Source: Cellulomonas cellasea
Lineage (GTDB): Bacteria > Actinomycetota > Actinomycetes > Actinomycetales > Cellulomonadaceae
Assembly (NCBI RefSeq): GCF_006538745.1
Contig: NZ_BJLR01000019.1
Coordinates: 186,001-250,000, forward strand
Length of the DNA: 64,000 nucleotides
Direction of reading: 5' to 3'
The notes under the pieces are model-generated. The model did no database searches, was not told the DNA's origin, and saw only the letters and a list, made by a program, of their open reading frames with translations. A program made the translations under genes and the position numbers. The first letter of the stretch is position 1; every line of letters begins with the position of its first letter. Shown here one piece after another: positions 34,106 to 54,736 of the stretch.

Positions 34106-34951
34106 TCAGGCGCCCGTGGGACGCCGCGCGATCTGCGTGTTCGAGACCTGCGCGCGCGGGCGGACCACGAGCGTGTCGATGTTCACGTGGTGCGGGCGCG
34201 TGAGCGCGAACGTGATGACGTCGGCGACGTCCTGGGCCAGCAGCGGCTCGTAGCCCTCGTAGATCTTCGCGGCGCGCTCGGCGTCCCCGCCGAACCGCAC
34301 GAGCGAGAACTCCTCGGTCGCGACGTTGCCGGGCGCGACGTCCATGACCCGCACCGGCTCGCCGATGAGCTCGAGGCGCAGCGTCGTGGTGAGCATGCGC
34401 TCGGCGTGCTTGACCCCGGTGTACCCGCCGCCGCCCTCGTAGGGCGCGATGCCCGCGGTCGAGGTCACGACGAGCACGTCGCCGCGCCCGCTCGCGCGCA
34501 GGGCCGGGAGCAGCGCCTTCGTGATGCGCAGCGTGCCGAGCACGTTGGTCTCGTACATCCGACGCCAGCCCTCGACGTCGGCGTGCTCGACGCGGTCGAG
34601 CCCGAGCGCACCGCCCGCGTTGTTGACCAGCGACGTCAGGCCGCCGGTCGCCTCGACGTGCGCGGTGAGCCGGGCGACGTCGTCGTCCGAGGTGATGTCG
34701 CACGCGAACGGCTCGGCACCCGTCTCGGCCGCGAGCGCCTCGAGCCGGTCGGCGCGGCGGGCGACGGCGACGACGTCCCAGCCCTCGGTGCGCAGCCGGC
34801 GCACCGTCGCCGCGCCGATGCCCGACGAGGCCCCGGTGACGACGGCGCGCAGCCGCGTCGCAGCGGTACCGTCCGCGGCCACCTCGCCCGTGCGGTGCTC
34901 GGTGCGGTGCTCCGTGCCCTGCGTCGTGCCGTCCGAACCCGTGGTGCTCAC
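34106..34951 (-). CDS. Short-chain dehydrogenase, YdfG-like (possible malonate semialdehyde reductase)
   Basis: Classical SDR of 281 residues. NADP-binding AVVTGASSGIGAATVRRL near 36, NNAGGALGLD near 110, and the catalytic Ser...YxxxK in VTSTAGIAPYEGGGGYTGVK near 160-180. The C-terminal RPHHVNIDTLVVRPRAQ is characteristic of the YdfG/serine 3-dehydrogenase branch, which reduces malonate semialdehyde to 3-hydroxypropionate in uracil catabolism. The first 32 residues are polar with a repeated EHRT. GTG start overlaps the aminotransferase stop, so it should act on that enzyme's product. Confidence 0.88.
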   Translation of the reverse strand: MSTTGSDGTTQGTEHRTEHRTGEVAADGTAATRLRAVVTGASSGIGAATVRRLRTEGWDVVAVARRADRLEALAAETGAEPFACDITSDDDVARLTAHVEATGGLTSLVNNAGGALGLDRVEHADVEGWRRMYETNVLGTLRITKALLPALRASGRGDVLVVTSTAGIAPYEGGGGYTGVKHAERMLTTTLRLELIGEPVRVMDVAPGNVATEEFSLVRFGGDAERAAKIYEGYEPLLAQDVADVITFALTRPHHVNIDTLVVRPRAQVSNTQIARRPTGA

Positions 34952-36321
34952 AGCTCTCCCTCGATCACGGTCAGTGCCTCGTCGTACACGGCCAGCGCCC
35001 GCGCCACCTCGTCGTCCGTGACGACGCACGGCGGCACCACGTGGATGCGGTTGTCGGCGAGGAACGGCAGCAGGTCGCGGGCCATCATCTCCGACTTCAC
35101 GCGTGCTACGAGCGCCGGGGGCAGCGGCTCGCGGGTCGCGCGGTCCGCCACGAGCTCGAGGGCCCAGAACACCCCGAGGCCGCGGACCTCGCCGATCACG
35201 GGGTGGCGATCGGCGAGCGCGGCGAGCCCGGGGCCCAGCACGTCGGCGCCGATGCGCGCGGCGTTCTCGACGACGTGCTCGCGCTCCATCGTCTCGATCG
35301 TCGCGACCACGGCCGCCATCGCGAGCGGGTGCCCCGAGTAGGTGAGGCCGCCCGGGAACACGCGGTCGTCGAACGTCGCGGCGACCGCGTCGGAGATCAG
35401 GACCCCGCCCGCCGGCACGTAGCCGGAGTTGACGCCCTTCGCGAACGTCACCAGGTCGGGGCGGACGCCCCAGTGGTCGAGCGCGAGCCACGCGCCGGTG
35501 CGCCCGAACCCCGACATGACCTCGTCGAGGATCAGCAGCACGCCGTACCGGTCGCACAGCGCGCGCACGCCGGCGAGGTAGCCGTCGGGCGGCACGAGCA
35601 CCCCGCCGGTCCCGACGACCGTCTCGAGCAGCACCGCGGCGACCGACGCCGGGCCCTCGCACTGGATCACGCGCTCGAGGTGGCGCAGCGCGCGCTCGCA
35701 CTCCTCCTCGGGCGTGGTCGCCCAGAAGTCGCTGCGGTACAGGTACGGGCCGAACGCGTGCACGTGCCCGCGCGCGTACTCGTTGGGCACCCGGCGCCAG
35801 TCCCCCGTCGCGACCACGGCCGCGCCGGTGTTGCCGTGGTACGAGCGGTACAGCGAGACGACCTTGTCGCGGCCCGTGTGCTGGCGCGCGAGGCGGATGG
35901 CGTTCTCGTTGGCGTCGGCGCCACCGTTGGTGAAGAAGATCTTGTGCATCCCCGCGGGGGCGTGCGCGACGACCGCCCGCGCCGCGAGCCCGCGCGTGAG
36001 GTTCGCGGTCGCCGGGGCCACGGTCGGCAGCAGGTCGGCCTGCATCTGGATCGCCTGCACGACCGCGGGGTGCCCGTGGCCGATGTTGGTGTTGACGAGC
36101 TGGCTCGAGAAGTCGAGGTAGCGGCGTCCGGCGTGGTCCCAGACCTCGCTGCCCGAGCCGCCGGCCAGCACGAACGGCGCCAGGGCACCCTGCGCCGACC
36201 AGGAGTGGAAGACGTGCGCGCGGTCGAGCTCGGCGGCCCGGACGTCGTCGGGGTGCCGTGCGGGGTGGGGATCGGCGTGCGGGGCGAGGCCCTCCGGGGA
36301 TCCCGGCGGTGCAGCGGTCAT
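34948..36321 (-). CDS. Class III omega-aminotransferase (probable beta-alanine--pyruvate type)
   Basis: PLP enzyme of 457 residues. Cofactor motifs: FFTNGGADANENAIRLAR near 118, SLYRSYHGNTGAAV near 145, ILDEVMSGFGRTGAW near 258, and the PLP Lys in VTFAKGVNSGYVPAGGVL near 285. Class III enzymes in pyrimidine pathways convert beta-alanine to malonate semialdehyde, which fits the neighbours; gamma-aminobutyrate or another amine is possible. ATG 36321 has an AGGAAGG ribosome site. The leader upstream is made of ACGCACGACGCAC-like repeats. Confidence 0.88.
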   Translation of the reverse strand: MTAAPPGSPEGLAPHADPHPARHPDDVRAAELDRAHVFHSWSAQGALAPFVLAGGSGSEVWDHAGRRYLDFSSQLVNTNIGHGHPAVVQAIQMQADLLPTVAPATANLTRGLAARAVVAHAPAGMHKIFFTNGGADANENAIRLARQHTGRDKVVSLYRSYHGNTGAAVVATGDWRRVPNEYARGHVHAFGPYLYRSDFWATTPEEECERALRHLERVIQCEGPASVAAVLLETVVGTGGVLVPPDGYLAGVRALCDRYGVLLILDEVMSGFGRTGAWLALDHWGVRPDLVTFAKGVNSGYVPAGGVLISDAVAATFDDRVFPGGLTYSGHPLAMAAVVATIETMEREHVVENAARIGADVLGPGLAALADRHPVIGEVRGLGVFWALELVADRATREPLPPALVARVKSEMMARDLLPFLADNRIHVVPPCVVTDDEVARALAVYDEALTVIEGEL

Positions 36322-36450
36322 GGCGGACGCCTTCCTGGTCGCGTCGTGCGTCGTGCGTCGTCCCGTGCGTGGCGCGTGGTGCGTCGGCGGGGAGCCGCCG
36401 GGGCGGGCGCGGGCGGCGTGGAGGTCGCCCGCGCCCACCCCGGCGGACGG

Positions 36451-37596
36451 TCAGGCGCCGCCGGGCTCGAGCGTCACGTCGACGGGCTCGAAGTCGGCGC
36501 CCGTGACGTCAACACCCTCCTCCTCGAGCTCGGCGAGCGCCCGGTCGACGTACTCGTTGGTGAACGCCGGCTCGGCGGGCTCCTCGGAGATGATCGTCGC
36601 GCCGGTCTCGTTGGAGGTCTGCAGCGACATCTCGACGGTCGCGTCCCACGCGGCCTCGTCGATGTGGCCGATGCCGCCCGTGCTGGGCCAGATGAGCTTG
36701 TTGACCTCGTTGGTCATCCACAGCTGGTGGCTCGTGCCCAGGGTCGAGCCGGCCTTGGTCACGTGGTCCGCGGCCTCCTGCGGGTTGTCCCGCGCGAACG
36801 CCCAGCCGCGGATCGTGGCCTTGAGGAACTTCACGGTCGTCTCGGCGTACTCCTCGTCGTCGGCGAGGCGGCCCTGGTCGGCCCAGATCGCGTCCTGGAG
36901 CATCGCGGTGCCCTCCTCGTTCCAGTCGATGACCGTGAAGTCCTCGGGCTGGTAGAGCTCGCCGGTCTCCGGGTTCTCGGCCTCGAGCAGCTGCGCGTAC
37001 TCGTTGTAGGTCATCGCCTGCGCCGCGTCGATGTCGCCCGCGAGGAACGCGTTCATGTCGAACGCCTGCTGCACGATCTCGACGTCCGTCACGCCGGCCT
37101 TGTTGAGCCCGGCGAACAGCTCCCACTCGTTGCCGTAGCCCCAGCTGCCGATCTTCTTGCCCGCGAGGTCCTCGACCGAGTCGATCCCCGAGTCGGCGAA
37201 CGCGACCTGCAGGGTCGCGGACCGCTCGAAGATCTGCGCGACGTCGACGATGTCGGCGCCCTGCTCGATCGACCCGAGCACCTTGGGCACCCAGGCGACG
37301 GCGTAGTCGACCTCGCCGTTCGCGAGCGCGTCCTGCGGGACGACGTCGCCGCCGCTCGGCAGGATCTCGACGTCCAGTCCCTCGTCGGCGTAGAACCCCT
37401 CGGCGAGCGCGGCGTAGTAGCCGGAGAACTGCGCCTGCGTGAGCCACTGGAGCTGGAGCTTCACGGGTGTCATCCCGCTCGCGGACTCGCTGGCGCCCGC
37501 CTCGGGCTCGCTGTCGCCCGCGCAGCCCGCGAGCGTGAGCGCGGCCGTGAGCCCGAGCGCCGTGGCGGCCCACCGTGCGCGTCTGGTGTCCCTCAT
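36451..37596 (-). CDS. ABC substrate-binding lipoprotein, NMT1/THI5-like
   Basis: 381 residues with a lipoprotein signal peptide ending in the lipobox LTLAGCAG (Cys at about 25). The mature protein has the NMT1/THI5 fold: LQLQWLTQAQFSGYYAALAE near 49 and GSWGYGNEWELFAGLNKAG near 149. Such proteins bind pyrimidine-related or amine ligands. It lies in the operon with two permeases and an ATPase, though a 189-bp spacer with C-rich repeats separates it from the nearer permease. The substrate is probably the pyrimidine or hydantoin degraded by the downstream-pathway enzymes. Confidence 0.9.
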   Translation of the reverse strand: MRDTRRARWAATALGLTAALTLAGCAGDSEPEAGASESASGMTPVKLQLQWLTQAQFSGYYAALAEGFYADEGLDVEILPSGGDVVPQDALANGEVDYAVAWVPKVLGSIEQGADIVDVAQIFERSATLQVAFADSGIDSVEDLAGKKIGSWGYGNEWELFAGLNKAGVTDVEIVQQAFDMNAFLAGDIDAAQAMTYNEYAQLLEAENPETGELYQPEDFTVIDWNEEGTAMLQDAIWADQGRLADDEEYAETTVKFLKATIRGWAFARDNPQEAADHVTKAGSTLGTSHQLWMTNEVNKLIWPSTGGIGHIDEAAWDATVEMSLQTSNETGATIISEEPAEPAFTNEYVDRALAELEEEGVDVTGADFEPVDVTLEPGGA

Positions 37597-37785
37597 GTCA
37601 TCGCCTTCCGTCGGTCGTCCGTGGGGGCCGCCCTTGCCCCGGGCGGGGTCGTGCGCGTGCTCGCCCGGTCGGTGCCCGGGTCTTGCCGTGCTGCGGGTGC
37701 TGCGGTGGTGCGGGTGGTGCGGTCCTGCGGGTGCTGCGGTGATCGACCAGCCCGGCGACGTCGGCGGGTGGACCTCCGTGGGGCG

Positions 37786-38592
37786 CTACGACGGGCCGGT
37801 GCCCGGGGCGTGGTGCCGCGTCACGGCGCGCTCGGCGGAGAGCGTCGCGACGTAGAAGACGAGCCCGACGACGATGCCGCCGACGACGTAGGCCCAGGCG
37901 CGGGCGTAGTTGCTGCCCGCGGCGGCGGTCGTGATGAACGAGCCGATGCCGGAGCGGGGTCCGCCGAAGTACTCCGCGACGATCGCGGAGATGACGGCCA
38001 GCGACGACGCGAGCCGCAGCCCGGTGAACACGAACGGCACCGCGGCGGGGATCGTCACGGCGCGCGTGACCTGGCGCGGCGTCGCGGCGAGGACCCGCAT
38101 GAGCTCGCGGTGCACCGGGCGCACCTGACGCAGGCCTCGCAGCGAGTTCACGAACACGGGCACCAGCACCGCGAGCGCCGCGACGAGCTGGCGCGCGACC
38201 TCCGAGCTCGCGCCGTACATCGTGTAGAGCACCGGGGCGAGCGCGACGATCGGGACGACCGCGAGCGCCGCGACGAGCGGCCCGAGCAGCGCGTCGACGG
38301 CTCGGGTGCGCGCGGCGAGCACCGCGAGGCCGATCCCGGCGAGCGAGCCGAGCACGAGCCCGACGAGCGCGTTGGTCCCGGTCACGAGCGCGGCCCCGCC
38401 GATGGCCGGGAGGAACGCGACCACCTCCGAGGCGATGGCTGCCGGGCCGGGCAGCAGGTACGCCGGGAGCTCCCCGAGCGTGACGGCCGCCTGCCACGCG
38501 GCGAGGACCGCGAGCCCGAGCAGGACCGGGGCGAGGACGCGCTGCGCGGCGTCGGCGTCGGCGCCGGGTGCAGGGAGGGTGCGGGCGCTCAC
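37786..38592 (-). CDS. ABC transporter permease (SsuC/TauC type)
   Basis: 268-residue permease with about six membrane helices. The ATPase-docking EAA loop is LMRVLAATPRQVTRAVTIPAAVPFVFTGLR in slightly variant form (positions about 173-200). GTG start overlaps the ATPase stop by 4 nt. It forms the importer with the adjacent ATPase, a second permease and the NMT1-like binding protein. Confidence 0.92.
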   Translation of the reverse strand: MSARTLPAPGADADAAQRVLAPVLLGLAVLAAWQAAVTLGELPAYLLPGPAAIASEVVAFLPAIGGAALVTGTNALVGLVLGSLAGIGLAVLAARTRAVDALLGPLVAALAVVPIVALAPVLYTMYGASSEVARQLVAALAVLVPVFVNSLRGLRQVRPVHRELMRVLAATPRQVTRAVTIPAAVPFVFTGLRLASSLAVISAIVAEYFGGPRSGIGSFITTAAAGSNYARAWAYVVGGIVVGLVFYVATLSAERAVTRHHAPGTGPS

Positions 38593-39398
38593 GGGACGTC
38601 CACCCCGCGCGCCGGCACGAGCGCCCCGCCGCGCAGCGCCTCGCGCACCGCGGTCACGGCCGCGAAGTACGCGGTGTCCTCGCGGACGCCGTCCTCGCGC
38701 CCCGCGGCCCGCCCGAGCCCGACGTCGACGACCGTGCGGATCCGGCCCGGCCGGGGCGACATGACCACGACGCGGTCCGAGAGGAACACCGCTTCGGGGA
38801 TCGAGTGCGTGACGAACACGACCGCGGCGCGCGTCTCGGCGCAGATCCGCACGAGCTCGTTCTGCAGCCGCTCGCGCGTCATCTCGTCGAGCGCCCCGAA
38901 GGGCTCGTCCATGAGGAGCAGGCTCGGCTCCTCGGCGAGCGCGCGGGCGATCGCGACGCGCTGCTGCATGCCGCCCGAGAGCTGGTCGGGGAAGTGGTCC
39001 GCGAAGTCGGTGAGCCCGACGAGCGCGAGCATCTCCTCGGCGCGGGCCCGCCGGGCGACCTTGCCGGTCCCGTGCAGCGCGAGCGGCAGCTCGACGTTCG
39101 CCCGGACCGTGCGCCACGGCAGGAGCCCCGCCTGCTGGAACGCGATGCCGTAGTCGTGCGCGAGCCGGGCCTGCTCGGGGCTGCGGCCGAAGACCTCGAT
39201 GGTCCCGGACGTCGGGGCGTCGAGGTCGGCGACGAGCCGCAGCAGCGTGCTCTTGCCGCAGCCGGACGGGCCGATGAGCGAGACGAACTCGCCCGCGGCG
39301 ACGGTCAGGTCGACGTCGTCGAGCGCGGTCACGGCCCCGACTCCCCCGCCGGCGAAGACCCTGCTCACGCCCCGGACGTCGACCGCGACGGCGCTCAC
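38589..39398 (-). CDS. ABC transporter ATP-binding protein (SsuB/TauB type)
   Basis: 269-residue ATPase. Walker A SLIGPSGCGKSTLLRLVADL near 41, Q-loop FQQAGLLPWRTV near 90, signature [16 protein letters not shown] near 138, Walker B LLLMDEPFGALDEMTRE near 160 and switch His VFVTHSIPEAVFL near 195. Both ends overlap neighbouring permease genes by 4 nt (GTGA), giving strict coupling. Confidence 0.95.
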   Translation of the reverse strand: MSAVAVDVRGVSRVFAGGGVGAVTALDDVDLTVAAGEFVSLIGPSGCGKSTLLRLVADLDAPTSGTIEVFGRSPEQARLAHDYGIAFQQAGLLPWRTVRANVELPLALHGTGKVARRARAEEMLALVGLTDFADHFPDQLSGGMQQRVAIARALAEEPSLLLMDEPFGALDEMTRERLQNELVRICAETRAAVVFVTHSIPEAVFLSDRVVVMSPRPGRIRTVVDVGLGRAAGREDGVREDTAYFAAVTAVREALRGGALVPARGVDVP

Positions 39399-40369
39399 GC
39401 GGTCACCTCCGCGCGGCGGTAGCGACCCAGCGGGGCACCCAGCAGCGCGACGACGCCCGACGCCACGAGCCCGAGGGCGATCGCCCCGAAGATCGGTGCC
39501 CAGGGCTTCGCCGGGTCGCTGCTCGCGAAGTTGGCCAGCTCGAGGATCATGCGTCCGACACCTCCGGGGAGTCCGGTCGAGACCTCGGCGACGACGGTCC
39601 CGACGACGGCGGCCGCGGCTGCGAGGCGCAGCGCGGGGAGCAGGTAGGGCACGGACGCGGGCAGGTGCAGGTGCACGAGCGCCTGCCACCACCCCGCGCC
39701 GTAGCTGGTGAGCAGCTCGCGGTGGATCGCGTCGGGCGACTGCAGGCCCCGCAGCGCCCCGACCGCGACGGGGAAGAACGCGAGGTAGGAGGCGATGACC
39801 GCGACCGACATCCAGCCCTGCCACTCGAACGCGCCGAGCTCGAGCTTCGAGCCCCACGACTTCACGAGCGGCGCGAGCGCGATGAGCGGGACGGTCTGGC
39901 TCAGCACGACGAACGGCAGCGCCGCGCGCTCGGCGAGCCGCACGCGCTGCATGAGCACCGCGAGCACGAGCCCGACGCCCACCCCGAGCACCCACCCGAC
40001 GGCCGCGACCCGCAGGCTCGCCGCGCACGCCTGCACGACGGCGACCCACAGCGCCGGCGCGCCGGCCGCGCCGGTCACGGGCTCGACGAGCCGCGCGAGC
40101 ATGTCGCTCACGTGCGGCATCGCGAGGTCGGACGTGCGCGGCAGGAGCCGGACCTCGCCGACGAGCCACCCGTCGTCGGGCGCGAGGAGCTTGTAGCCCT
40201 CCCATGCCGCGACCACGAGCGCGAGCGCCGCGAGACCGAGCCCGACGCTGCGGGCGGGGCGGGCGACCGCGGCGCCCGCCCGGCGCACCGCCGCGGGTCG
40301 CGCAGCAACCGGTCGCACGCCAGCCGGTCGCACGGCCGCCGGTCGCACGGCCGCCGGTCGCTCGTTCAC
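39395..40369 (-). CDS. ABC transporter permease with repetitive N-terminus
   Basis: 324 residues, longer than its partner permease. The first 40 are Pro/Ala/Arg/Val-rich, built of repeated RPAAV-like pentapeptides and probably cytoplasmic and disordered. About six helices follow, with the docking loop YGAGWWQALVHLHLPASVPY near 220. GTG 40369 overlaps the LLM stop. The family matches SsuC/ThiX-type permeases. The repeats may vary in number between strains. Confidence 0.9.
   Translation of the reverse strand: MNERPAAVRPAAVRPAGVRPVAARPAAVRRAGAAVARPARSVGLGLAALALVVAAWEGYKLLAPDDGWLVGEVRLLPRTSDLAMPHVSDMLARLVEPVTGAAGAPALWVAVVQACAASLRVAAVGWVLGVGVGLVLAVLMQRVRLAERAALPFVVLSQTVPLIALAPLVKSWGSKLELGAFEWQGWMSVAVIASYLAFFPVAVGALRGLQSPDAIHRELLTSYGAGWWQALVHLHLPASVPYLLPALRLAAAAAVVGTVVAEVSTGLPGGVGRMILELANFASSDPAKPWAPIFGAIALGLVASGVVALLGAPLGRYRRAEVTA
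40309..40364 (-). repeat. 15-bp tandem repeats at the permease 5' end
   Basis: About 3.7 copies of CCGGTCGCACGGCCG-like 15-bp units (plus-strand sense) encode the repeated RPAAV motif. Two adjacent units are identical. The unit length preserves the reading frame. Confidence 0.7.
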
Positions 40370-41397
40370 GCGGTCGCCACGACGGTCTCGCGCAGCGCGG
40401 GGATGACGCGCTCGCCGTACATCCGCAGGGTCTCCTCCTTGTTGTCGTGCTGGAGGTAGCCGGCGAACTGCGTGACACCGAGCGCGCGCAGGGCCTCGAG
40501 CTTCTCGACGTGCTCGCGGGGGCTGCCGAGCAGGCAGAACCGCTCGACGATCTCGTCGGGCACGAAGTCCGCGTGCGTGTTCCCGGCGCGTCCGTGCTGG
40601 TTGTAGTCGTACCCCTGCCGCCCCTCGATGTAGTCGGTGAGGGCCTTCGGCACGGTCGACCCGGCGCCGTACTTCGTGACGATGTCGGCGACGTGGTTGC
40701 CGACCATGCCGCCGAACCACCGGCACTGCTCGCGCATGTGCGCCCGCTCGGCCGGGGAGTCGCCGTTGCCGACGTACATGGGCGCCGCGACGCAGAACTT
40801 CACGGTGTCGGGGTCGCGCCCGGCCTGCTCGGCGGCGTCCCGGACGGTGCGGATCATCCACGCGGCGACGTCGAGGTCGGCGAGCTGCAGGATGAACCCG
40901 TCGCCCACCTCGCCGGTCAGCTTGAGCGCGAGCGGCCCGTAGGCGGCGACCCACATCTCGAGCGCGGAACCGTGGCTCCACGGGAACCGGACCTTCGCAC
41001 CGTTGACCTCGACCGCGCGGTCGTTCGCGAGCTCGCGGATGACGTGGATCGACTCGCGGAGCGTCGCGAGGTTGGACGGCCGGCCGTTCAGCGTGCGGAC
41101 CGCCGAGTCGCCGCGGCCGATGCCGCACACGGTCCGGTTGCCGTACATCTCGTTGAGCGTCGCGAACAGCGAGGCGAGCACGGTCCAGTCCCGCGTCGCG
41201 GGGTTGGTGACCATGGGCCCGACGACCACCTTGCGGGTGGCCGCGAGGATCGCCGAGTAGATGACGAACGGCTCCTGCCACAGCAGGTGCGAGTCGAACG
41301 TCCACACGTAGTCGAAGCCGTGCGTCTCGGCCTGGCGCGCGAGCTCGACGGTGCGCGAGGCCGGGGGGTTGGTCTGCAGGACGACGCCGAAGTCCAC
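40366..41397 (-). CDS. LLM-class oxidoreductase (F420 or flavin dependent) of the pyrimidine operon
   Basis: A 343-residue luciferase-like TIM-barrel enzyme related to methylene-H4MPT reductase (Mer). DFGVVLQTNPPASRTVELA at the N-terminus; YVWTFDSHLLWQEPF near 32; VVVGPMVTNPATRDW near 55; MYGNRTVCGIGRGDSAVRTL near 86; the AAYGPLALKLTGEVGDGFI cofactor region near 150. It resembles the CPS_4043 (TIGR03842) group, from memory. Lying between transporter and dihydropyrimidinase genes, it could catalyse the first redox step on the pyrimidine ring; no dihydropyrimidine dehydrogenase is nearby. GTG 41397 has a GGAGGGAG ribosome site. Confidence 0.85.
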   Translation of the reverse strand: MDFGVVLQTNPPASRTVELARQAETHGFDYVWTFDSHLLWQEPFVIYSAILAATRKVVVGPMVTNPATRDWTVLASLFATLNEMYGNRTVCGIGRGDSAVRTLNGRPSNLATLRESIHVIRELANDRAVEVNGAKVRFPWSHGSALEMWVAAYGPLALKLTGEVGDGFILQLADLDVAAWMIRTVRDAAEQAGRDPDTVKFCVAAPMYVGNGDSPAERAHMREQCRWFGGMVGNHVADIVTKYGAGSTVPKALTDYIEGRQGYDYNQHGRAGNTHADFVPDEIVERFCLLGSPREHVEKLEALRALGVTQFAGYLQHDNKEETLRMYGERVIPALRETVVATA

Positions 41398-41426
41398 GGT
41401 GTGCTCCCTCCGGTTCAGGTACGGCT

Positions 41427-42845
41427 TCAGATGAGGTACTGCGAGAGCTCGCGCTTGACGTAGCGGCCGTGCCCGGCGCGCCCGTGGAACTCCCCGCCGT
41501 CGACGACGACCGAGCCGCGCGAGAGCACCGTGTCGACGTGCCCGTCGACCTCGAAGCCCTCCCAGGCCGAGTAGTCCATCTGCATGTGGTGGGTCTTCCC
41601 GAGCCCGATCGACGTGTGGCCGGCGGGGTCGTAGACGACGAGGTCGGCGTCGGCGCCGGGGGCGATCACGCCCTTGCGGCCGTACATCCCGAACATCCGC
41701 GCGGGGGTCGTCGAGCAGATCTCGACCCACCGCTCGAGCGTGATCTCGCCGGTCACGACGCCCTGGTAGAGCAGGTCGAGGCGGTGCTCGACCGAGCCGA
41801 TGCCGTTCGGGATCTTCGAGAAGTCGCGCACCCCCAGCTGCTTCTGGGTCATGCAGAACGGGCAGTGGTCGGTCGAGACGAGCTGCAGGTCGTTGGTGCG
41901 CAGCGCGCGCCACATGTGGTCCTGGTGGTGCTCGGCCCGCGAGCGCAGCGGCGTCGAGCACACCCACTTCGCGCCGTCGAACCCGGGCGCTCCGAGCTGC
42001 TCCTCGAGCGAGAGGTACAGGTACTGCGGGCACGTCTCGCCGAACACGTTCTGGCCCTCGTCGCGGGCGAGCGCGATCTGGTGCGCGGCCTGCTTCGCCG
42101 AGACGTGCACGACGTACAGCGGGGCGCCCGTGAGGTTCGCAAGCATGATCGCGCGGTGTGTCGCCTCGGCCTCCGCCTGCCAGGGCCGGGTCAGCCCGTG
42201 GAACACCGGGTCGGTGTCGCCGCGGGCGAGCGACTGCTGCACGAGCAGGTCGATGACCGAGCCGTTCTCGGCGTGCATCATGATCATCGAGCCGTTCGAG
42301 GCGGCCTTCTGCATGGCCTTGACGATCTGGCCGTCGTCCGACAGGAACACGCCCTTGTAGGCCATGAAGAGCTTGAAGCTCGACACGCCCTCCGCGACGA
42401 GCTCGTCCATCGCGTCGAGCGAGGAGTCCTGGACGTCGCTGAGGATCTGGTGGAAGCCGTAGTCGATCGCACACGCGCCGGCGGCCTTGTCCTGCCACAG
42501 CGCGTACTGCTCGAGCGGGTTCTCCCCCGCGTACTGCACGACGAAGTCCACGATCGTCGTCGTGCCGCCCCACGCGGCGGCCTTCGTGCCGGTCTCGAAC
42601 GTGTCGGAGGCGAACGTGCCGCCGAAGGGCATCTCCATGTGGGTGTGCGCGTCGATGCCGCCGGGGATGACGTACTTCCCCGTGGCGTCGATCACGCGGT
42701 CGACCGAGGCGGCGAGGTCGTGGCCGAGCAGCGTCGAGCCGGGCGCGAGCACGGCGGCGATCTGCTCGCCGTCGACGAGCACGTCGGCGGCGCCGCGGCC
42801 GGTCGCGTTCACGACGGTGCCGCCGGTGATCAGGGTCGTGGTCAT
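41427..42845 (-). CDS. hydA: Dihydropyrimidinase / D-hydantoinase
   Basis: Opens dihydrouracil, dihydrothymine or hydantoin rings to N-carbamoyl amino acids. 472 residues. Binuclear metal site: IDAHTHMEMPFGG near 64 (HxH), carbamylated Lys in SSFKLFMAYKG near 153, MMHAENG near 190, YVVHVSAKQAA near 242 and VSTDHCPF near 325 (Asp). All ligands are intact. The nitrilase-like hydrolase for the product lies directly upstream; the two define the reductive pyrimidine route. Confidence 0.94.
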   Translation of the reverse strand: MTTTLITGGTVVNATGRGAADVLVDGEQIAAVLAPGSTLLGHDLAASVDRVIDATGKYVIPGGIDAHTHMEMPFGGTFASDTFETGTKAAAWGGTTTIVDFVVQYAGENPLEQYALWQDKAAGACAIDYGFHQILSDVQDSSLDAMDELVAEGVSSFKLFMAYKGVFLSDDGQIVKAMQKAASNGSMIMMHAENGSVIDLLVQQSLARGDTDPVFHGLTRPWQAEAEATHRAIMLANLTGAPLYVVHVSAKQAAHQIALARDEGQNVFGETCPQYLYLSLEEQLGAPGFDGAKWVCSTPLRSRAEHHQDHMWRALRTNDLQLVSTDHCPFCMTQKQLGVRDFSKIPNGIGSVEHRLDLLYQGVVTGEITLERWVEICSTTPARMFGMYGRKGVIAPGADADLVVYDPAGHTSIGLGKTHHMQMDYSAWEGFEVDGHVDTVLSRGSVVVDGGEFHGRAGHGRYVKRELSQYLI

Positions 42846-42894
42846 GCGGGGCGTCCTCTCGCGGGTCGTCGGGCCGGCGCGTGCGGGGCCGGGG

Positions 42895-43743
42895 TCACGG
42901 CGCGACGATCGGGGCGTAGGCGTCGGGGCGGCGGTCGCGGAAGAACTGCCAGCGCTCGCGCACCTCGCGGACCTGGTCGAGGTCGATGTCCCGGACGATC
43001 AGCCCGGCCTCGGTCGAGGACGCGACGTCGCCGACGACGTTCCCGTCGGGCCCGACGACGTAGGAGGAGCCGTAGAACGCGACCGCCTCGTCGCCGTACT
43101 CGTTGGTCTCGGCACCGACGCGGTTGCACGCCGCGACGAAGTAGCCGTTCGCGATCGCCGCGGCCGGCTGCTCGATCTCCCAGAGCTTGTTGGAGATGCC
43201 GGGCGCGGTGGCGTTCGGGTTGAACACGATCTCGGCGCCGTTCAGGGCCAGCGTGCGCCAGCCCTCCGGGAAGTGCCGGTCGTAGCAGATGTTCACGCCG
43301 ATCTTTCCGACCGCGGTCTCGAACACCGGCCAGCCGAGGTTGCCGGGGCGGAAGTAGAACTTCTCCCAGAACTTGGGCAGGTGCGGGATGTGGTGCTTGC
43401 GGTACTTGCCGAGGTAGCTGCCGTCCGCGTCGATGACCGCGGCGGTGTTGTAGAGCACGCCGGGCTGGTCCTCCTCGTAGACCGGGAGCACGATCACGAT
43501 GCCGAGCTCGGCAGCGAGCGCCGCGAACCGGTCGGTCGTCGGGCCCGGCACGGACTCCGCGTACTCGTAGTACGCCGGGTCCTGCGTGATCCCGAAGTAC
43601 GGGCCGTAGAACAGCTCCTGGAAGCAGATCACCTGCGCGCCCTGCGCGGCGGCCTGCCGCGTGAAGTCCTCGTGCAGGGCGGTCATCGACTCCCGGTCGC
43701 CCGTCCACCCCGTCTGGGTCAGCGCCACGCGCACCACGCTCAT
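42895..43743 (-). CDS. Nitrilase-superfamily N-carbamoyl-beta-alanine amidohydrolase
   Basis: 282-residue carbon-nitrogen hydrolase. The Glu-Lys-Cys triad is visible: ICFQELFYGPYFG near 38, GKYRKHHIPHLPKFWEKFYF near 111, and GVNICYDRHFPEG near 147. GYFVAACNRVG near 203 is also typical. The protein resembles beta-ureidopropionase and N-carbamoylputrescine amidase; the adjacent dihydropyrimidinase favours beta-ureidopropionase. First gene of the operon; the divergent regulator starts 267 bp away. Confidence 0.9.
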   Translation of the reverse strand: MSVVRVALTQTGWTGDRESMTALHEDFTRQAAAQGAQVICFQELFYGPYFGITQDPAYYEYAESVPGPTTDRFAALAAELGIVIVLPVYEEDQPGVLYNTAAVIDADGSYLGKYRKHHIPHLPKFWEKFYFRPGNLGWPVFETAVGKIGVNICYDRHFPEGWRTLALNGAEIVFNPNATAPGISNKLWEIEQPAAAIANGYFVAACNRVGAETNEYGDEAVAFYGSSYVVGPDGNVVGDVASSTEAGLIVRDIDLDQVREVRERWQFFRDRRPDAYAPIVAP

Positions 43744-43868
43744 CAGGCCTCCGCCTCGTCGGTCCGTCGTCGCCGCCGGGCGTGCCGGTCGGCGGTCCGG
43801 TGCGGGGTCCCGGGGCCGGCGAGGGCCTCGGGGCCACGTCGCCAGGAATGTGACTGTGGGCGTTGAAC

Positions 43869-43894
43869 ATTTCTGCGGCGTAACCGTGTGTTTC
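43869..43894 (-). promoter_or_regulatory. GlnR-like site upstream of the pyrimidine operon
   Basis: In operon sense the sequence reads GAAAC-n5-GTTAC-n6-GAAAT, close to alternating GlnR boxes (gTnAc and GaAAc with 6-nt spacers); one spacer is a base short. It lies in the only AT-richer part of the 267-bp divergent region shared with the MocR gene. Inferred from pattern only. Confidence 0.35.
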
Positions 43895-44010: not shown

Positions 44011-45417
44011 ATGCCCGAGCACACCTCCCGTGCCGTCGCACGCACCGACGGCTCCCCCACCGCCGCGCCGGTGCGCCTCGCCGCGCACGTCGACGACCGC
44101 AGCCCGCGCGGCATCGCCGCGACCGTCGCCCGCCTCGTGCGCTCGGGCGAGCTCGCGCCCGGCGACCGCCTGCCGACCGTGCGCGAGCTCGCGGCGGACA
44201 TCGGGGTGTCGCCGGCGACCGTGAGCGGCGCGTGGCAGGCGCTCGCGGGCGTCGGGCTCGTCGTCTCGCGGGGCCGGGCCGGCACCTACGTCCAGCCCGA
44301 GCCCGCGAGCTGGCTGCCGCCGCGCTACCGCGACCTCGCCACCGGCGCACCCGCCGCGCGCCTCGACCTGTCGAGCGGCACCCCCGACCCCGCGCTGCTG
44401 CCCCCGCTCGGTCCCGCGCTGCGCCGGGTCGCCGCGCGCACGCCCGCCGCCGGGACCGGCACCTACCTGTCCGCCCCCGTCATCGAGCCGCTCGAGCGGC
44501 TGCTGCGGGCGTCGTGGCCGTTCGCCCCCGAGCGCCTGACCGTGGTCGACGGCGCGGTCGACGCGCTGAGCCGCACGCTCGAGCAGGTCGCGCGGTTCGG
44601 GGACCGCGTCGTCGTCGAGGACCCCTGCTTCCCGCCGATCCTCGACCTGCTCGACCAGCTCGGCCTCGAGCGCGTCCCGGTCGCGCTCGACCGGCAGGGC
44701 CTGCGCCCCGACCTGCTCGCCGCGGCGCTCGACGGCGGCGCGAGCGTCGTCGTGCTCCAGCCGCGCGCGCACAACCCGACCGGGGTGAGCATGTCCGCGA
44801 CGCGGGCCCGCGAGCTCGCGCGCGTGCTGCGGGCCCCACGCGACGGCCCGCGCGTGCACGTCGTCGAGGACGACCACTCGGGCGACATCTGCCGGGCGCC
44901 CGACGTGAGCCTCGGCCAGCACCTCCCGCACCGCGTCGTGCACGTGCGCTCCTACTCCAAGTCGCACGGCCCGGACCTGCGCATCGCGGCCGTCGGCGGG
45001 CCTGCGGCCGTGCTCGACCGGCTCGTCGCGCGCCGCATGCTCGGGCCCGGGTGGACGAGCCGGCTGCTGCAGGAGGTGCTCGTCGACCTCATGACCGACG
45101 GCGACCCGATGGGTGCGGTGCTCGACGCCCGGCGCGTGTACTCCGCCCGCCAGCGCGCGCTCACCGCCGCGCTCGCGGAGCACGGCGTGCGCGTCCAGCC
45201 CGGCGACGGGATCAACCTGTGGCTGCCGGTCGCCGACGAGGCCGCGGCGCTCGTCCGGCTCGAGGCCGCGGGGATCCGGGTCGCGCCGGGCTCGCCCTTC
45301 CTCGCCCGTACCGAGCCGGCGGACGGCCCGCGCGGTGCGCACGTACGCGTCACCGTCGGGGTGCTGCGGGACGACTTCGAGGCCATCGCCCGGGCGCTCG
45401 CGCTCGCCGCAGCCTGA
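44011..45417 (+). CDS. MocR-type GntR regulator with aminotransferase domain
   Basis: 468 residues. An N-terminal GntR winged helix (about 32-90: ATVARLVRSGELAPGDRLPT, then ELAADIGVSPATVSGAWQAL) is fused to a fold-type I aminotransferase domain with LQPRAHNPTGVSMS near 250 and the PLP Lys region RSYSKSHGPDLRIA near 313. MocR proteins sense amine or amino-acid ligands through PLP. Divergent from the catabolic operon, it is its probable activator, perhaps responding to beta-alanine or a similar amine. Confidence 0.92.
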   Translation: MPEHTSRAVARTDGSPTAAPVRLAAHVDDRSPRGIAATVARLVRSGELAPGDRLPTVRELAADIGVSPATVSGAWQALAGVGLVVSRGRAGTYVQPEPASWLPPRYRDLATGAPAARLDLSSGTPDPALLPPLGPALRRVAARTPAAGTGTYLSAPVIEPLERLLRASWPFAPERLTVVDGAVDALSRTLEQVARFGDRVVVEDPCFPPILDLLDQLGLERVPVALDRQGLRPDLLAAALDGGASVVVLQPRAHNPTGVSMSATRARELARVLRAPRDGPRVHVVEDDHSGDICRAPDVSLGQHLPHRVVHVRSYSKSHGPDLRIAAVGGPAAVLDRLVARRMLGPGWTSRLLQEVLVDLMTDGDPMGAVLDARRVYSARQRALTAALAEHGVRVQPGDGINLWLPVADEAAALVRLEAAGIRVAPGSPFLARTEPADGPRGAHVRVTVGVLRDDFEAIARALALAAA

Positions 45418-49501: not shown

Positions 49502-50337
49502 CGCTCACGGGCGTGCGGACCCGGCTCGGCGGGCGGTGGGTCGTCGACGGCATCGACGCGACGCCGCCCCCGGGCCGCCTGACCGGGCTGCTCGGCCCCA
49601 ACGGCGCGGGCAAGACGACGCTCCTGCGGCTCGTCGCCGGGCTGCTCGTCCCCGAGGGCGGCGCGGTGCTCGTCGACGCCGGCGCCGACCCGGGCGCGGC
49701 GGCGACCGCGCCGGTCCCCGTGCACGACCTCCCCCGGCGCGCGCGGGCCCGGCGGATCGCGCTGCTCGAGCAGGAGTCGTCGAGCACCGTGCCGCTCTCG
49801 GTGCACGACGTCGTCGCGCTCGGGCGGATCCCCTACCGCACCGCCTGGGGCGCCGACCCGGACCCCGCCGCCGTGACCCGCGCGCTCGAGCACGCCCGCG
49901 CGGCGCACCTCGCGGACCGGGCGTGGTCGTCGCTGTCGGGCGGCGAGCGCCAGCGGGTGCACGTCGCGCGCGCGCTCGCGCAGGAGCCCGAGCTGCTGCT
50001 GCTCGACGAGCCGACGAACCACCTCGACGTGAGCACGCAGCTGAGCCTGCTCGCGTTCGTCCGCGACCTCGGCACCACGACGGTCGCGGCGCTGCACGAC
50101 CTCAACCTCGCCGCGGCGTTCTGCGAGCACGTGCTCGTGCTCTCGGGCGGACGGCTCGCCGCAGCCGGGCACCCGCGCGACGTGCTGCGTCCCGCGCTGC
50201 TCAGCGAGGTCTACGGGGTCGACTGCGACGTGCTGACCCACCCGCGCACCGGGCGGCCGGTCATCGCGTTCGCGGAGCCGGCGAGCGACCCGGCGCCCAC
50301 CGCCCCCGCACCCCCGACCGACGGAGCCCCCGCATGA
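49492..50337 (+). CDS. BtuD-like ABC ATPase, proposed F420-0 importer
   Basis: 281 residues. Walker A LLGPNGAGKTTLLRLVAGLL near 34, a Q-loop region LLEQESSSTVPLSVHDVV near 92, signature SLSGGERQRVHVARALAQ near 145, Walker B LLLLDEPTNHLDVSTQ and switch His ALHDLNLAAAF. GTG 49492 overlaps the permease end by 10 nt and its stop overlaps cofD (ATGA), coupling transport and cofactor synthesis. Confidence 0.92.
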   Translation: MELTLTGVRTRLGGRWVVDGIDATPPPGRLTGLLGPNGAGKTTLLRLVAGLLVPEGGAVLVDAGADPGAAATAPVPVHDLPRRARARRIALLEQESSSTVPLSVHDVVALGRIPYRTAWGADPDPAAVTRALEHARAAHLADRAWSSLSGGERQRVHVARALAQEPELLLLDEPTNHLDVSTQLSLLAFVRDLGTTTVAALHDLNLAAAFCEHVLVLSGGRLAAAGHPRDVLRPALLSEVYGVDCDVLTHPRTGRPVIAFAEPASDPAPTAPAPPTDGAPA

Positions 50338-51344
50338 AGATCACGGTCCTGTCCGGCGGCGTCGGCGGTGCCCGGTTCACGCGCGGGCTGCTCGCCCACC
50401 TGCGCACCGTCCTCCCGGGCGCCCCGGACGCCCCCGCCGGCACGACCGCCGAGGTCACCGTCGTCGCGAACACCGGCGACGACATGTGGTTCCGCGGCGT
50501 GCGGGTGTGCCCCGACCTCGACACGCTGATGTACACGCTCGGCGGCGCGGTGCACGAGGACCAGGGCTGGGGCCGGCGCGAGGAGACGACGCGCACGAGC
50601 ACCGACCTCGCCGCGTACGGGCTCGGCGGCGAGTGGTTCACGCTCGGCGACCTGGACCTCGCGACGCACCTGGCCCGGACGGAGCTGCTGCGCACCGGGC
50701 TCGGGCTCGCCGACGTGACCGCCCGGCTGTGCCGGCGCTGGTCCCCCGGCGCGCGCCTGCTCCCCATGACCGAGCAGGAGGTCGAGACGCACGTCGAGGT
50801 CGACGGCCCGGACGGCTCGCCCGTGCTGCTGCACTTCGAGGAGTGGTGGGTGCGGCACCGCGCGGCGCTGCCCGCGCGGCGGTTCGTGCAGGTCGGCCTC
50901 GGCCCGTCGCAGCCCGGACCGGGCGTCCTGGACGCGCTGCGGGACGCGGACGTCGTCGTCGTGCCGCCGTCGAACCCGGTCGTCTCGGTCGGCACGATCC
51001 TCGCCGTCCCGGGGGTCCGCGACGCGCTGCGGGCGACGCGCGCGCCGGTCGTGGGCGTCAGCCCGGTGATCGGCGGGGCGCCGGTGCGGGGCATGGCCGA
51101 CGCGTGCCTGCGCGCGATCGGCGTCGAGACGAGCGCCGCGGCGGTCGCCCGGCACTACGGGCGGCGCGACGAGGGCGGGGTCCTCGACGCGTGGCTGCTC
51201 GACACGGCCGACGCCGCCGCGGCCGAGGAGCTGCGCGCCGAGGGCTGGGTGGCGCGCGCCGTCCCGACGCTCATGACGGACGTCCCGACCACCGCGCGGA
51301 TCGCCGCCGACGCCCTGGACCTCGTGGCCGCCGGGCGCCGCTAG
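50334..51344 (+). CDS. cofD: 2-phospho-L-lactate (or PEP) transferase CofD/FbiA
   Basis: Joins the activated lactyl/enolpyruvyl group to FO, forming F420-0 or dehydro-F420-0. 336 residues. The N-terminal ITVLSGGVGGARFTRGL is the CofD signature; VVANTGDDMWFRGVRVCPDL near 43, GGEWFTLGDLDLATHLART near 100 and VVVPPSNPVVSVGTIL near 206 complete the FO/GTP site. The final gene of the transporter operon apart from the following RDD gene. FO synthase (fbiC) is not in the window. Confidence 0.95.
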   Translation: MKITVLSGGVGGARFTRGLLAHLRTVLPGAPDAPAGTTAEVTVVANTGDDMWFRGVRVCPDLDTLMYTLGGAVHEDQGWGRREETTRTSTDLAAYGLGGEWFTLGDLDLATHLARTELLRTGLGLADVTARLCRRWSPGARLLPMTEQEVETHVEVDGPDGSPVLLHFEEWWVRHRAALPARRFVQVGLGPSQPGPGVLDALRDADVVVVPPSNPVVSVGTILAVPGVRDALRATRAPVVGVSPVIGGAPVRGMADACLRAIGVETSAAAVARHYGRRDEGGVLDAWLLDTADAAAAEELRAEGWVARAVPTLMTDVPTTARIAADALDLVAAGRR

Positions 51345-52269: not shown

Positions 52270-52923
52270 TCAGCCGGTGCGCCGGCCGCCGAGCCCGTGC
52301 AGCACCTGCCGCGTCTGCTCCCCCACGCGCAGCGCCGCCACCGCGTCGAGGTCCGCGGCGACGTCGACGTCCTGCTCCACGCCCGACCCGCGGGGCACCG
52401 CGAGCCGGACGTGCCCGGCGGCGGTGTGCGCGGCCGCGGACCCCGCCCCGAAGCGGGGTCGCGGCGCGTGGCCGGCGCGCGCCGTCAGGACGGTCGTCCC
52501 CGTCCCCTCGGCGTCCGCGACGAACCCGCGCGCCACGCCGCCGGCCCGCGCCAGCACGTCGTCGAGCTCGTCGGGGCGGAGCGCGGGCAGGTCGCCGAGC
52601 ACGACCGCCACGCCGTCGTGCGGCGCGAGGTCCCGCGCCCGCGCGATCCCGAGGCCCACCGCCGCGTCGAGCCCGACCGCGGTGCGCTCGGCGAGGACCT
52701 CGACCCCGGGCAGCTCGGCGGCGGTGGCACCGAACGCCGCGTCCCCGGTGACCACGACCACGCGGGCGACGGCGCGCGCTGTGCTCACCGCGGCGAGGGT
52801 GTCCCCCGCCATCGCGCGCACCAGCGCGGTGCGCGCGCCGGGGTCGAGGGTCCCCGCGAGGCGGGTCTTGCCGAGCGCCGCCGCCTTGACGGGCACGACG
52901 ACGCTCCAGCGGGCGGTGCTCAC
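52270..52923 (-). CDS. cofC: Phospholactate/PEP guanylyltransferase CofC/FbiD
   Basis: Activates 2-phospholactate or PEP with GTP to give the donor used by CofD. 217 residues. Nucleotidyltransferase N-terminus [19 protein letters not shown], then [11 protein letters not shown] near 55 and [16 protein letters not shown] near 102 (metal-binding Asp). GTG start overlaps cofE by 4 nt. The 128 bp beyond its stop, before the RDD gene, hold imperfect CACCCCGGGTCAGC repeats and no clear terminator. Confidence 0.9.
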
Positions 52924-53720
52924 GCGGGCGTCGCGCCCGTCGTGGGCAGCCCGCGGCCGTCCGCGGCGTCCTTCCAGCCCTGCGCGTACGCCTCGGCGCT
53001 GCCCTGCTCGAACATGTCCTCGGCGCCGAGGCGCACGAGGCTGCGCGCGCCCGGGCCGTCCTCGTCGGTCACGTGCTCGGCGAGCCCGCGCACGACCGCG
53101 ACGGGCCGCCCGGTGGCCTTGCCCTTGACGAGCTCCGCGGCGCCGGCGATCTCGTCGGCGACCGCGGCCTGGCTCACCTGCAGAGCGCGCCCGTGCGTGT
53201 CGAGCCGCCCGCGCAGGTCGTCGAGCACGCGCACGCCCGCGGCGCCGATCGCGAGGTCGGTCTGCCCGTGCCGCCACGGCCGTCCCGCGGTGTCGGTCAG
53301 CAGGACGCCGAGCGCGAGCCCGAACCGCTCCCGGAGCCCGGCGCGCAGGCGCCGCGCGGACGCGTCCGGGTCGAGCGGCAGGAGCAGCACGGTGCCGTCG
53401 GGGGTGTTCGACGCGTCGACACCCGCCGCGGCCATGACGAGCCCGAGCCGGTTCTCGACGATCCGCGTCACGCCGCCGGGGTGCTCGCGCGTCGCGACGA
53501 CCCGCACCGTCTCGGCGGTGATCGCGTCCTCGCGGTCGGCCGCCGGGACGACCCGCCCCTCGGCCTTCGAGACGATCTTGCTGGTCACGACCACGATGTC
53601 GCCGTCCGCGAGCGCCGGCAGCGCGGGGTCCGCGAGCGCACGGGCGACGAGCTCGACGAGGTCGTCGCCGGGCACGACCTCGGGCAGCCCGTCCGGCGCC
53701 CAGACGCGCAGCTCGCTCAT
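52920..53720 (-). CDS. cofE: Coenzyme F420-0:L-glutamate ligase CofE
   Basis: Adds glutamates to F420-0. 266 residues, a single CofE domain: [20 protein letters not shown] near 38, [20 protein letters not shown] near 87, [20 protein letters not shown] near 138 and [20 protein letters not shown] near 180. Mycobacterial FbiB has an additional C-terminal flavin domain that reduces dehydro-F420-0; that half is missing here. ATG overlaps the FGD-like stop (ATGA). Confidence 0.94.
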
Positions 53721-54736
53721 CGCACGAGGCTCGGCAGGACGTCGCGGCCGAAGACCTCGATCCACTCGCGCTGGTTGCGCCCGACGTTGTGCAGGTAGAT
53801 CCGGTCGAAGCCGAGGTCGACGTACTTCTGGATCTCGGCGCGGTGCACGTCGGGGTCCGCGGAGATGACCATGCGGCCCTGGAAGTCCTCGGGGCGCACG
53901 AGCTTGGCCATCTGCTCGAAGTCGAACGGCGAGCGGATGTCGGCCTTGGGGAACTTCATGCCGCCGTTGGGCCACTCGGTCATCGCGTTCGTGAGCGCCT
54001 GCTCGTCGGTCTCCGCCCAGGACATGTGGAGCTGGAGCACCTTGGGCATCGTGTCGGGGTCCTTGCCGGCCTCGCGCGCGCCCTCGGCGAACTTGGCGAA
54101 CAGCCCGGAGATCTTCTCGAGCGGAGCGCCGACCGTGATGAGCCCGTCGGCGTGGCGGCCCGTGCGCTTGGCGGTCACGGGCCCGGCGGTCGCGACGAGG
54201 ATCTCGGGCGGGACCTCGGGCATGGTCCACAGGCGGGTCGACTCGAGCTTGTAGAACGTCCCCGAGTGCTTGACGTCCTTGCCCGCGAGCGACGCCGTGA
54301 ACAGCTTGTTGATGATCTCGATGGCCTCGAACATGCGGTTGATCCGCTCGGGCGCCTCGGGCCAGTAGCCGGCGACCACGTGCTCGTTGAGCGCCTCGCC
54401 CGAGCCGAGCCCGAGCCAGTGCCGCCCGGGGTACATCGCGGCGAGCGTCGCCGACGCCTGCGCGACCATCGCGGGGTGCCACCGGAACGTCGGCGCGGTC
54501 ACGCCCGGACCGAGGTCGCCGCGCGTGCGCTCACCGAGCGCCGAGAGCACGTTCCAGACGAACGCCGACTGCCCCTGCGCGGGGACCCACGGCTGGAAGT
54601 GGTCCGCAGCCATGACGCCCGAGAACCCGTTCTCCTCCGCGTACGCCGACAGCTCGACGACCTCGCTCGGGTGGAACTGCTCCAGCATCGCCGCGTACCC
54701 GACCGTCAGTCCGGCCGCCGTCACACCCTGCGCCAC
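53717..54736 (-). CDS. F420-dependent glucose-6-phosphate dehydrogenase-like LLM enzyme
   Basis: 339 residues, LLM family, G6PDH branch (TIGR03557-like from memory). [20 protein letters not shown] near 10; [20 protein letters not shown] near 34 contains the conserved DHFQPW with the catalytic His of Fgd; [20 protein letters not shown] near 110. True Fgd makes F420H2 from glucose 6-phosphate; relatives oxidise other alcohols, so the substrate is uncertain. GTG 54736 has a GAGAGG ribosome site. First gene of fgd-cofE-cofC, divergent from valS. Confidence 0.88.

Follow-up and report, generated by a model that had tools for sequence, protein, structure and literature searches.

A candidate F420-dependent reductase in place of dihydropyrimidine dehydrogenase in a predicted pyrimidine catabolic operon of Cellulomonas cellasea

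Which enzyme could start the reductive breakdown of pyrimidines in a bacterium whose operon carries the later steps of the pathway and no recognizable dihydropyrimidine dehydrogenase? The question is raised by a nine-gene operon of Cellulomonas cellasea (assembly GCF_006538745.1, contig NZ_BJLR01000019.1), which lies entirely on the minus strand at positions 34106-43743 of the 64,000-nt stretch of DNA analyzed here (contig positions 186,001-250,000, forward strand; this whole stretch is called the window, and its coordinates are used throughout). An initial annotation had read the operon as a nitrilase, a dihydropyrimidinase (HydA), a luciferase-like monooxygenase (LLM)-class oxidoreductase, an NMT1-type importer, a class III aminotransferase and a YdfG-like short-chain dehydrogenase/reductase (SDR), and had proposed that the LLM enzyme performs the first ring reduction instead of PreA/PreT. 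Profile searches of the open reading frames (ORFs) of the window, by which both the gene content and the extent of the operon were checked, confirmed all of these genes (Table 1), and the scarcity of PreA in the genome and in the phylum supports the proposed role. We consider it probable (roughly 0.7), on the basis of sequence comparison, that the operon encodes a complete reductive Pyd route which starts with a non-homologous, F420H2-dependent LLM protein of the TIGR03842 family in place of the usual enzyme.

From the computed gene identities and their linkage, we infer the reaction, substrate and direction of this LLM enzyme as follows. The ATP-binding cassette (ABC) importer of the NMT1 type would take up uracil, thymine or a close relative, and the LLM enzyme would reduce the C5=C6 bond with a hydride taken from F420H2, so that 5,6-dihydrouracil is formed. 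HydA would then open the ring to N-carbamoyl-β-alanine, from which the nitrilase would free β-alanine, CO2 and NH3. The aminotransferase would hand on the last nitrogen, and the SDR would convert malonate semialdehyde to 3-hydroxypropionate. CofC, CofD and CofE would finish F420, and an Fgd-family LLM protein would probably re-reduce it.

Absence of the usual first enzyme and the steps that remain

In the C. cellasea genome, no match to the PreA model NF006183 was found at E≤1e-30, PreT not being part of this genome-wide search. The single match to PF01180, which we take to be the domain carried by PydA/PreA-type enzymes, is an ORF that was judged by eye to read as a class-2 PyrD. The same domain was used for the PydA homologue UacX in PMC12507026. 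The statement that no PreA is present, made at first for the operon, is thus borne out genome-wide, and neither a PydA/PreA-type dihydropyrimidine dehydrogenase nor the RutA of the Rut pathway was found in the host genome.

We also surveyed 396 Actinomycetota genomes, counting matches over the curated cut-offs. HydA was found in 114 genomes, TIGR03842 in 79 and PreA in 2. Of the TIGR03842 genomes, 72 also have HydA (Fisher p 2e-40, which is optimistic because the genomes are related), and TIGR03842 lies within 15 kb of HydA in 61 of its 79 genomes, in one case by way of a contig-end HydA fragment below the cut-off. PreA is present in one of the 114 HydA genomes, and none of the 396 holds both TIGR03842 and PreA. 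This mutual exclusion was not used as proof, since PreA passes its cut-off in only 2 genomes anyway, one of which (G191) has a stop inside the gene; the argument for a missing reductase is that HydA is widespread and PreA scarce. The only genome with PreA beside HydA (G208) shows the order preT-preA-amidase-hydA, and has no TIGR03842 match over the cut-off.

For the named relatives of the locus, the top 80 of 588 confirmed matches were taken; they show 72-92% identity and come from close Actinomycetota only, the wider taxonomic reach being given by plasmid records alone. At 25 of the 80 loci, at least one full 10-kb flank is missing. Among these best 80 the closest is Actinotalea subterranea, with an LLM protein 92% identical to that of C. 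cellasea. In 80/80 relatives the gene immediately upstream of the LLM gene, in the same orientation, encodes HydA, so the arrangement is not due to chance. A nitrilase is found at 78 of the loci, the binding protein at 59, the aminotransferase at 57 and a MocR-type regulator at 49. PreA was absent at E≤1e-30 from all ten genomes behind ten of the 80 loci, and PreA, PreT and RutB gave no match at E≤1e-5 at any of the 80 loci themselves.

The best solved relative of HydA is the dihydropyrimidinase 3sfw. The nitrilase is nearest to 2vhh (CG3027-PA; E 4e-59) and to the β-ureidopropionases 8pt4 and 6ftq (3e-56), with the N-carbamoylputrescine amidase 5h8i just as close (2e-57), and its matches to D-carbamoylases are weaker (E 8e-32 and beyond). 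A HydA adjacent to a β-ureidopropionase-type nitrilase, the pairing that marks a Pyd pathway, is therefore present as judged by sequence. Since β-ureidopropionases resemble the nitrilase more than D-carbamoylases do, hydantoin would be the weaker substrate, and of the 'pyrimidine/hydantoin' heading first given to the operon the pyrimidine half stands better. The aminotransferase has the taurine:2-oxoglutarate aminotransferase 6jix as its best solved relative (E 1e-103), and the model that it matches, NF004718 (PRK06062), carries the name 'hypothetical protein'. Solved relatives of the SDR are 2nwq and 3asu, YdfG-type enzymes among them, and the sulfoacetaldehyde reductase 6ixj; for the binding protein, 3ix1, which binds formyl-aminopyrimidine, is among them (E 1.7e-13). 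The extension of the Pyd pathway by PydD and PydE is described in PMC7332683, where Yin et al. (2019) is cited. By their families and nearest relatives, the aminotransferase and the SDR fit this published extension and may be its PydD-like and PydE-like members.

Table 1. Positions of the operon genes, the F420 genes and the upstream features in the window
Feature	Position	Strand	Model or motif
Nitrilase-family amidohydrolase, proposed β-ureidopropionase	42895..43743	-	CN_hydrolase
HydA, dihydropyrimidinase/D-hydantoinase	41427..42845	-	TIGR02033 553 bits, cut-off 393
LLM-class oxidoreductase, proposed F420H2-dependent uracil/thymine reductase	40366..41397	-	TIGR03842 587 bits, cut-off 295
ABC permease 1	39395..40369	-	PF00528
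ABC ATPase, NtrCD/SsuB type	38589..39398	-	TIGR01184 218 bits, below cut-off 292
ABC permease 2	37786..38592	-	PF00528
NMT1/THI5-type substrate-binding protein	36451..37596	-	PF09084 127 bits
Class III aminotransferase, proposed β-alanine:2-oxoglutarate aminotransferase (PydD-like)	34948..36321	-	NF004718 730 bits, cut-off 472
SDR, proposed malonate semialdehyde reductase (PydE-like)	34106..34951	-	YdfG model NF007829 171 bits, below cut-off 411
CofD, 2-phospho-L-lactate transferase (F420 biosynthesis)	50334..51344	+	TIGR01819 343 bits, cut-off 257
CofC (F420 biosynthesis)	52270..52923	-	TIGR03552 137 bits, cut-off 105
CofE, F420-0:glutamate ligase	52920..53720	-	PRK13294 321 bits, cut-off 304; TIGR01916 235 vs 181
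Fgd-family LLM, candidate F420 reducer	53717..54724	-	TIGR03557 284 bits, cut-off 210
Divergent MocR-type regulator (GntR + aminotransferase)	44011..45417	+	PF00392 + PF00155
GlnR-box-like conserved element between operon and divergent MocR gene	43849..43893	-	tcACa-n4-GaAAC-n6-GAAATGTTcA

Linkage of the LLM gene to F420 genes

The solved sequences nearest to the LLM protein are those of the F420-dependent Mer (8qpm, E 1.2e-34; 1z69 and 1f07), followed by FGD1, and its score over the curated cut-off places it in the TIGR03842 family (F420_CPS_4043). Mer, the F420-dependent methylenetetrahydromethanopterin reductase, has the segments GPxVTNPxxR and GxGxGDxA in common with it. However, Mer acts on another substrate, and TIGR03842 has conserved segments of its own, RWFxxMVGNHVAD and GYDYxxHG (26 sequences).

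Genes for F420 are encoded in the same window, 9-13 kb from the LLM gene, namely cofD, cofC, cofE and the Fgd-family LLM gene. The product of the last scores below the strict Fgd cut-off (220 versus 420), and its top-scoring model is TIGR03885, a family named for flavin mononucleotide (FMN), at 308 bits and below the cut-off of 399. At least one F420 gene occurs at 42 of the 80 relatives' loci, and at 31 of the 55 loci with both 10-kb flanks; the binomial p of 2e-36 for this proximity treats the genomes as independent and is too small, and only the counts are used here. In the phylum sample, CofD was found in 73 of the 79 TIGR03842 genomes.

More compact arrangements were found elsewhere. Arthrobacter sp. 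MYb23 carries hydA, TIGR03842, an M20 amidase, fgd, cofD, cofE, cofC and fbiC in series on one strand, and its Fgd passes the strict cut-off (TIGR03554, 633 bits). Among the plasmid records, 12 contain a TIGR03842-like match of at least 43% identity, and 11 of these belong to the Rhodobacterales. In all 11, about 2.1 kb separates cofD from the LLM gene on the same strand, and at the three Rhodobacterales loci that were examined the LLM gene is the last gene of the cofG-cofH-cofD-cofC-cofE-npdG operon. At both Leisingera loci, pntAB, an aminotransferase of the AptA ω-aminotransferase type, an M20 amidase, hydA and an NCS1 nucleobase:cation symporter are divergent from this LLM operon. The initial annotation had left the cofactor open. 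The F420 genes of the window, together with the linkage in Rhodobacterales and Arthrobacter MYb23, largely answer that caveat, which keeps some force in that the host and 29 of the 34 other TIGR03842 genomes sampled in its family are without FO synthase. Judging from these comparisons, the cofactor of the TIGR03842 LLM proteins is most likely F420, far likelier than a flavin.

F420 supply and competing readings

Several observations weigh against an F420-dependent pyrimidine pathway. LLM proteins as such are common, with 25 LLM-domain matches in the host genome. TIGR03842 is missing from 42 of the 114 HydA genomes, and 41 of these 42 lack PreA as well; therefore HydA alone does not imply a TIGR03842 reductase, and there are further solutions or further roles for HydA. 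About 2 kb from the classical preTA-hydA cluster of G208 lies a distant LLM match (31% over 162 residues), and in Paracoccus alcaliphilus the LLM gene stands in an F420 operon but no hydA was found in the 44 kb examined. The SDR was initially read as a malonate semialdehyde reductase; this fits its nearest solved relatives, but the SDR passes its threshold at just 7 of the 80 relatives' loci, so that this step would be optional.

The supply of the cofactor raises further points of this kind. No FO synthase was found in the host genome with two models at E≤1e-20, one of which matches at >600 bits in 14 of the 81 genomes of the host's family. The 35 TIGR03842 genomes sampled in this family divide into 5 with CofD and FbiC, 24 with CofD only and 6 with neither, and the association of TIGR03842 with CofD is weak there (29/35 versus 28/46; p 0.049). 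The 24 genomes without FbiC and the 6 with neither would have to depend on salvage for their F420, or the enzyme could use something else there. Six TIGR03842 genomes of the phylum sample, fragmented and 81-96% complete, are also without CofD. CofH is over the cut-off in two of them, weaker in two (maybe paralogues) and missing in two, so assembly gaps explain some of these cases, perhaps not all.

The six family genomes without CofD and FO synthase are 99% complete, and two are single-contig. They keep the nitrilase, HydA, the LLM enzyme, the aminotransferase and the SDR, with one lacking the ABC importer in this stretch, and all six encode CofE and an Fgd-family LLM protein within about 9 kb. 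We know of no role of CofE other than F420, and its retention therefore looks as if synthesis of the cofactor had been lost step by step while its use went on. With no FO synthase encoded, the cells would have to obtain FO, the head group, or a later precursor from outside. We infer that what is seen in the genomes without FO synthase looks like salvage of FO or F420-0; alternatively, the enzyme could work with another cofactor in the CofD-less relatives. The words 'uptake', 'scavenge' and 'salvage' were not found in the main text of a 2021 review of F420 (PMC8498797). As a separate observation, many genomes of the family, the host and loci L127-L132 among them, keep CofC/CofD/CofE or CofE alone without FO synthase, a pattern of possible F420-precursor salvage.

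We put forward tentatively, at slightly less than even odds, a wider scenario in which a portable module of F420 synthesis, an F420 reducer, TIGR03842 and HydA spread to Rhodobacterales and Arthrobacter and decayed stepwise in the host's Cellulomonadaceae-like family. FO synthase would have been lost first and CofC/CofD later, with the reductase and CofE being kept. Pyrimidine breakdown would then be a main reason why scattered bacteria hold F420, and in this family the precursors would be a shared vitamin obtained from neighbours. If the salvage reading is true, F420 is an exchanged cofactor. If the pyrimidine pathway itself is true, it provides a physiological role for F420 in Rhodobacterales; the same 2021 review raises the question of why F420 is made by Proteobacteria and Chloroflexi, and it reports no experimental work on the role of F420 in bacteria other than Actinobacteria (PMC8498797).

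We also considered whether the LLM protein is an F420-dependent reductase of another cyclic ureide or N-heterocycle, such as a substituted hydantoin or a modified or thiamine-type pyrimidine, with HydA opening the product and the operon not serving uracil or thymine. HydA-type enzymes are broad in substrate, and the TIGR02033 model that HydA matches is named D-hydantoinase. The binding protein has a formyl-aminopyrimidine binder among its relatives, and NCS1 symporters also carry allantoin (the models were matched below cut-off) and, as a further example, hydantoin. In genome G344, a different LLM subfamily stands beside HydA and an SsnA-like gene, which resembles the purine-route type outlined in PMC12507026. 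However, the kinship of the nitrilase with β-ureidopropionases rather than D-carbamoylases argues against such a substrate, as does the resemblance of the aminotransferase/SDR pair to enzymes acting on taurine- or β-alanine-like compounds; in Leisingera, moreover, LLM and HydA are paired with a nucleobase-type symporter and the AptA-type ω-aminotransferase. We regard this alternative as unlikely.

That the LLM protein is an FMN enzyme, either oxidizing or oxygenating the ring in the manner of RutA or reducing it with FMN, seems improbable. RutA is a member of the LLM superfamily that acts on uracil by flavin-based oxygenation, and six 99%-complete relatives carry the LLM operon but neither CofD nor FO synthase. 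However, beyond the common superfamily the LLM protein showed no significant similarity to E. coli RutA by BLASTP (E 0.15), and its nearest solved relatives are F420 enzymes. RutA passed its cut-off in none of the 79 TIGR03842 genomes (the host and 78 others), it gave just three matches of 50-57 bits at the 80 relatives' loci, where RutB gave none, and RutF was not found among the 8 loci tested. HydA, furthermore, requires a reduced ring, and the CofE and Fgd-family LLM kept near the operon in all six CofD-less relatives point to F420. A RutA-type enzyme was rejected on the lack of a match to E. coli RutA and of any RutA over cut-off in the 79 genomes. Finally, it is hardly credible that the LLM enzyme runs in reverse, oxidizing a dihydropyrimidine or another reduced substrate to yield F420H2 with HydA using the remaining pool, since, although LLM enzymes such as Fgd do reduce F420 (PMC8498797), a dedicated F420 reducer adjoins the LLM gene in the compact modules (NpdG at the three Rhodobacterales loci, Fgd in Arthrobacter MYb23), so that the LLM enzyme seems to receive F420H2 and not to make it, and transhydrogenase genes adjoin in Leisingera.

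Related systems and the surroundings of the operon

The proposed pyrimidine route is most readily compared with the Pyd pathway with PydA/PreAT, extended by PydD and PydE, in which dihydropyrimidinase, ureidopropionase, β-alanine aminotransferase and malonic semialdehyde reductase (steps 2-5) are likewise placed in one cluster (PMC7332683). The difference lies in the first enzyme, which here would be an F420-linked LLM protein and not a flavin/iron-sulphur enzyme of the PydA/PreA type. Lineages differ in the electron donor that they use for the first Pyd step, the PydAc of Clostridium being ferredoxin-dependent according to the same source (PMC7332683); however, PydAc is still a PydA homologue, whereas here the entire family would have been replaced.

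In uric acid clusters of Chloroflexota, a putative F420-dependent, luciferase-family yanthine reductase has been proposed (PMC12507026). There too, an LLM protein would reduce a uracil-type ring ahead of the hydrolase step, in place of YgfK or a PydA homologue, but the route is a purine route with SsnA. We observed a Mer-like LLM subfamily other than TIGR03842 directly beside HydA at two loci, L136 (genome G344) and L137 (G378), with an SsnA-like gene following in L136. The G344 protein scores 88 bits against TIGR03842, which is below the cut-off and indicates a different subfamily, and the SsnA-like gene is below its model cut-off; the cluster, in a member of the Actinomycetota, resembles part of the uric acid degradation cluster for which use of F420 has been proposed. 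A further parallel is SSGG-03002/NpsU of the dihydro-mureidomycin and napsamycin pathways, a putative F420/FMN oxidoreductase for which reduction of the uracil C5=C6 bond was shown genetically (PMC10714638). It differs in serving antibiotic biosynthesis on a uridyl peptide substrate, and it showed no activity in vitro.

By analogy, the chemistry and the principle thus have precedents in the donor variation of PydAc, the LLM proposal for Chloroflexota and the uracil reduction in mureidomycin. In the open-access literature searched, we found no proposal of an F420-dependent enzyme for pyrimidine catabolism; PMC8097209 mentions F420 once, in a context unrelated to it. Nor did these searches turn up the pyrimidine-catabolic use, its breadth in Actinomycetota, its connection with the synthesis of F420 in Rhodobacterales and Arthrobacter, or the series of cofactor losses. 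If the proposal is true, it names the missing first enzyme of uracil breakdown for many Actinomycetota. In Mycobacterium smegmatis, the reductive pathway is described as induced under nitrogen limitation, with not all of its genes identified (PMC4617892).

Other F420 operons were also encountered on plasmids. On a plasmid of Agrobacterium rubi (L090), another LLM gene of such an operon lies beside 5-oxoprolinase-type genes, and on pSymA of Sinorhizobium meliloti (L088) another lies beside pyrC-annotated, CoA-transferase and transhydrogenase genes; these appear to be other uses of F420 in Proteobacteria. Plasmid 3 of Variovorax sp. PBL-E5, from linuron-contaminated soil (L004), carries a distant LLM gene (33% identity) with a nitrilase, an amidohydrolase, RidA and the full cofGHDCE/npdG set.

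An NCS1 nucleobase-type symporter match (86-389 bits) was found at 20 of 30 LLM loci from the phylum survey, the host genome included, within flanks of ≤1.5 kb. NpdG, M20 and NCS1 were rejected as general partners in the 80 relatives (1/80 each), the one NCS1 match over threshold being in Nocardia neocaledoniensis. Clustering of ORFs in the flanks beyond the operon yielded mostly overlapping-frame artefacts and was set aside; of ten cluster representatives that were scanned, six had no Pfam match and four matched a DNA glycosylase, YceD, RNase III and a LysR regulator.

Within the operon, the first description of nearly all junctions as 4-nt overlaps was overstated. With the most likely starts, four of the eight junctions overlap by 4 nt (LLM/permease, permease/ATPase, ATPase/permease and aminotransferase/SDR), and the other four are gaps of +49, +29, +189 and +129 nt. 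Upstream of the operon, the conserved element between it and the divergent MocR gene resembles what we take to be the GlnR consensus. Of 79 upstream regions, one from the window and the others from 78 of the 80 relatives, 56 contain its core GAAATG, versus 1.9% of random stretches, and the element suggests that the operon may be under nitrogen control.

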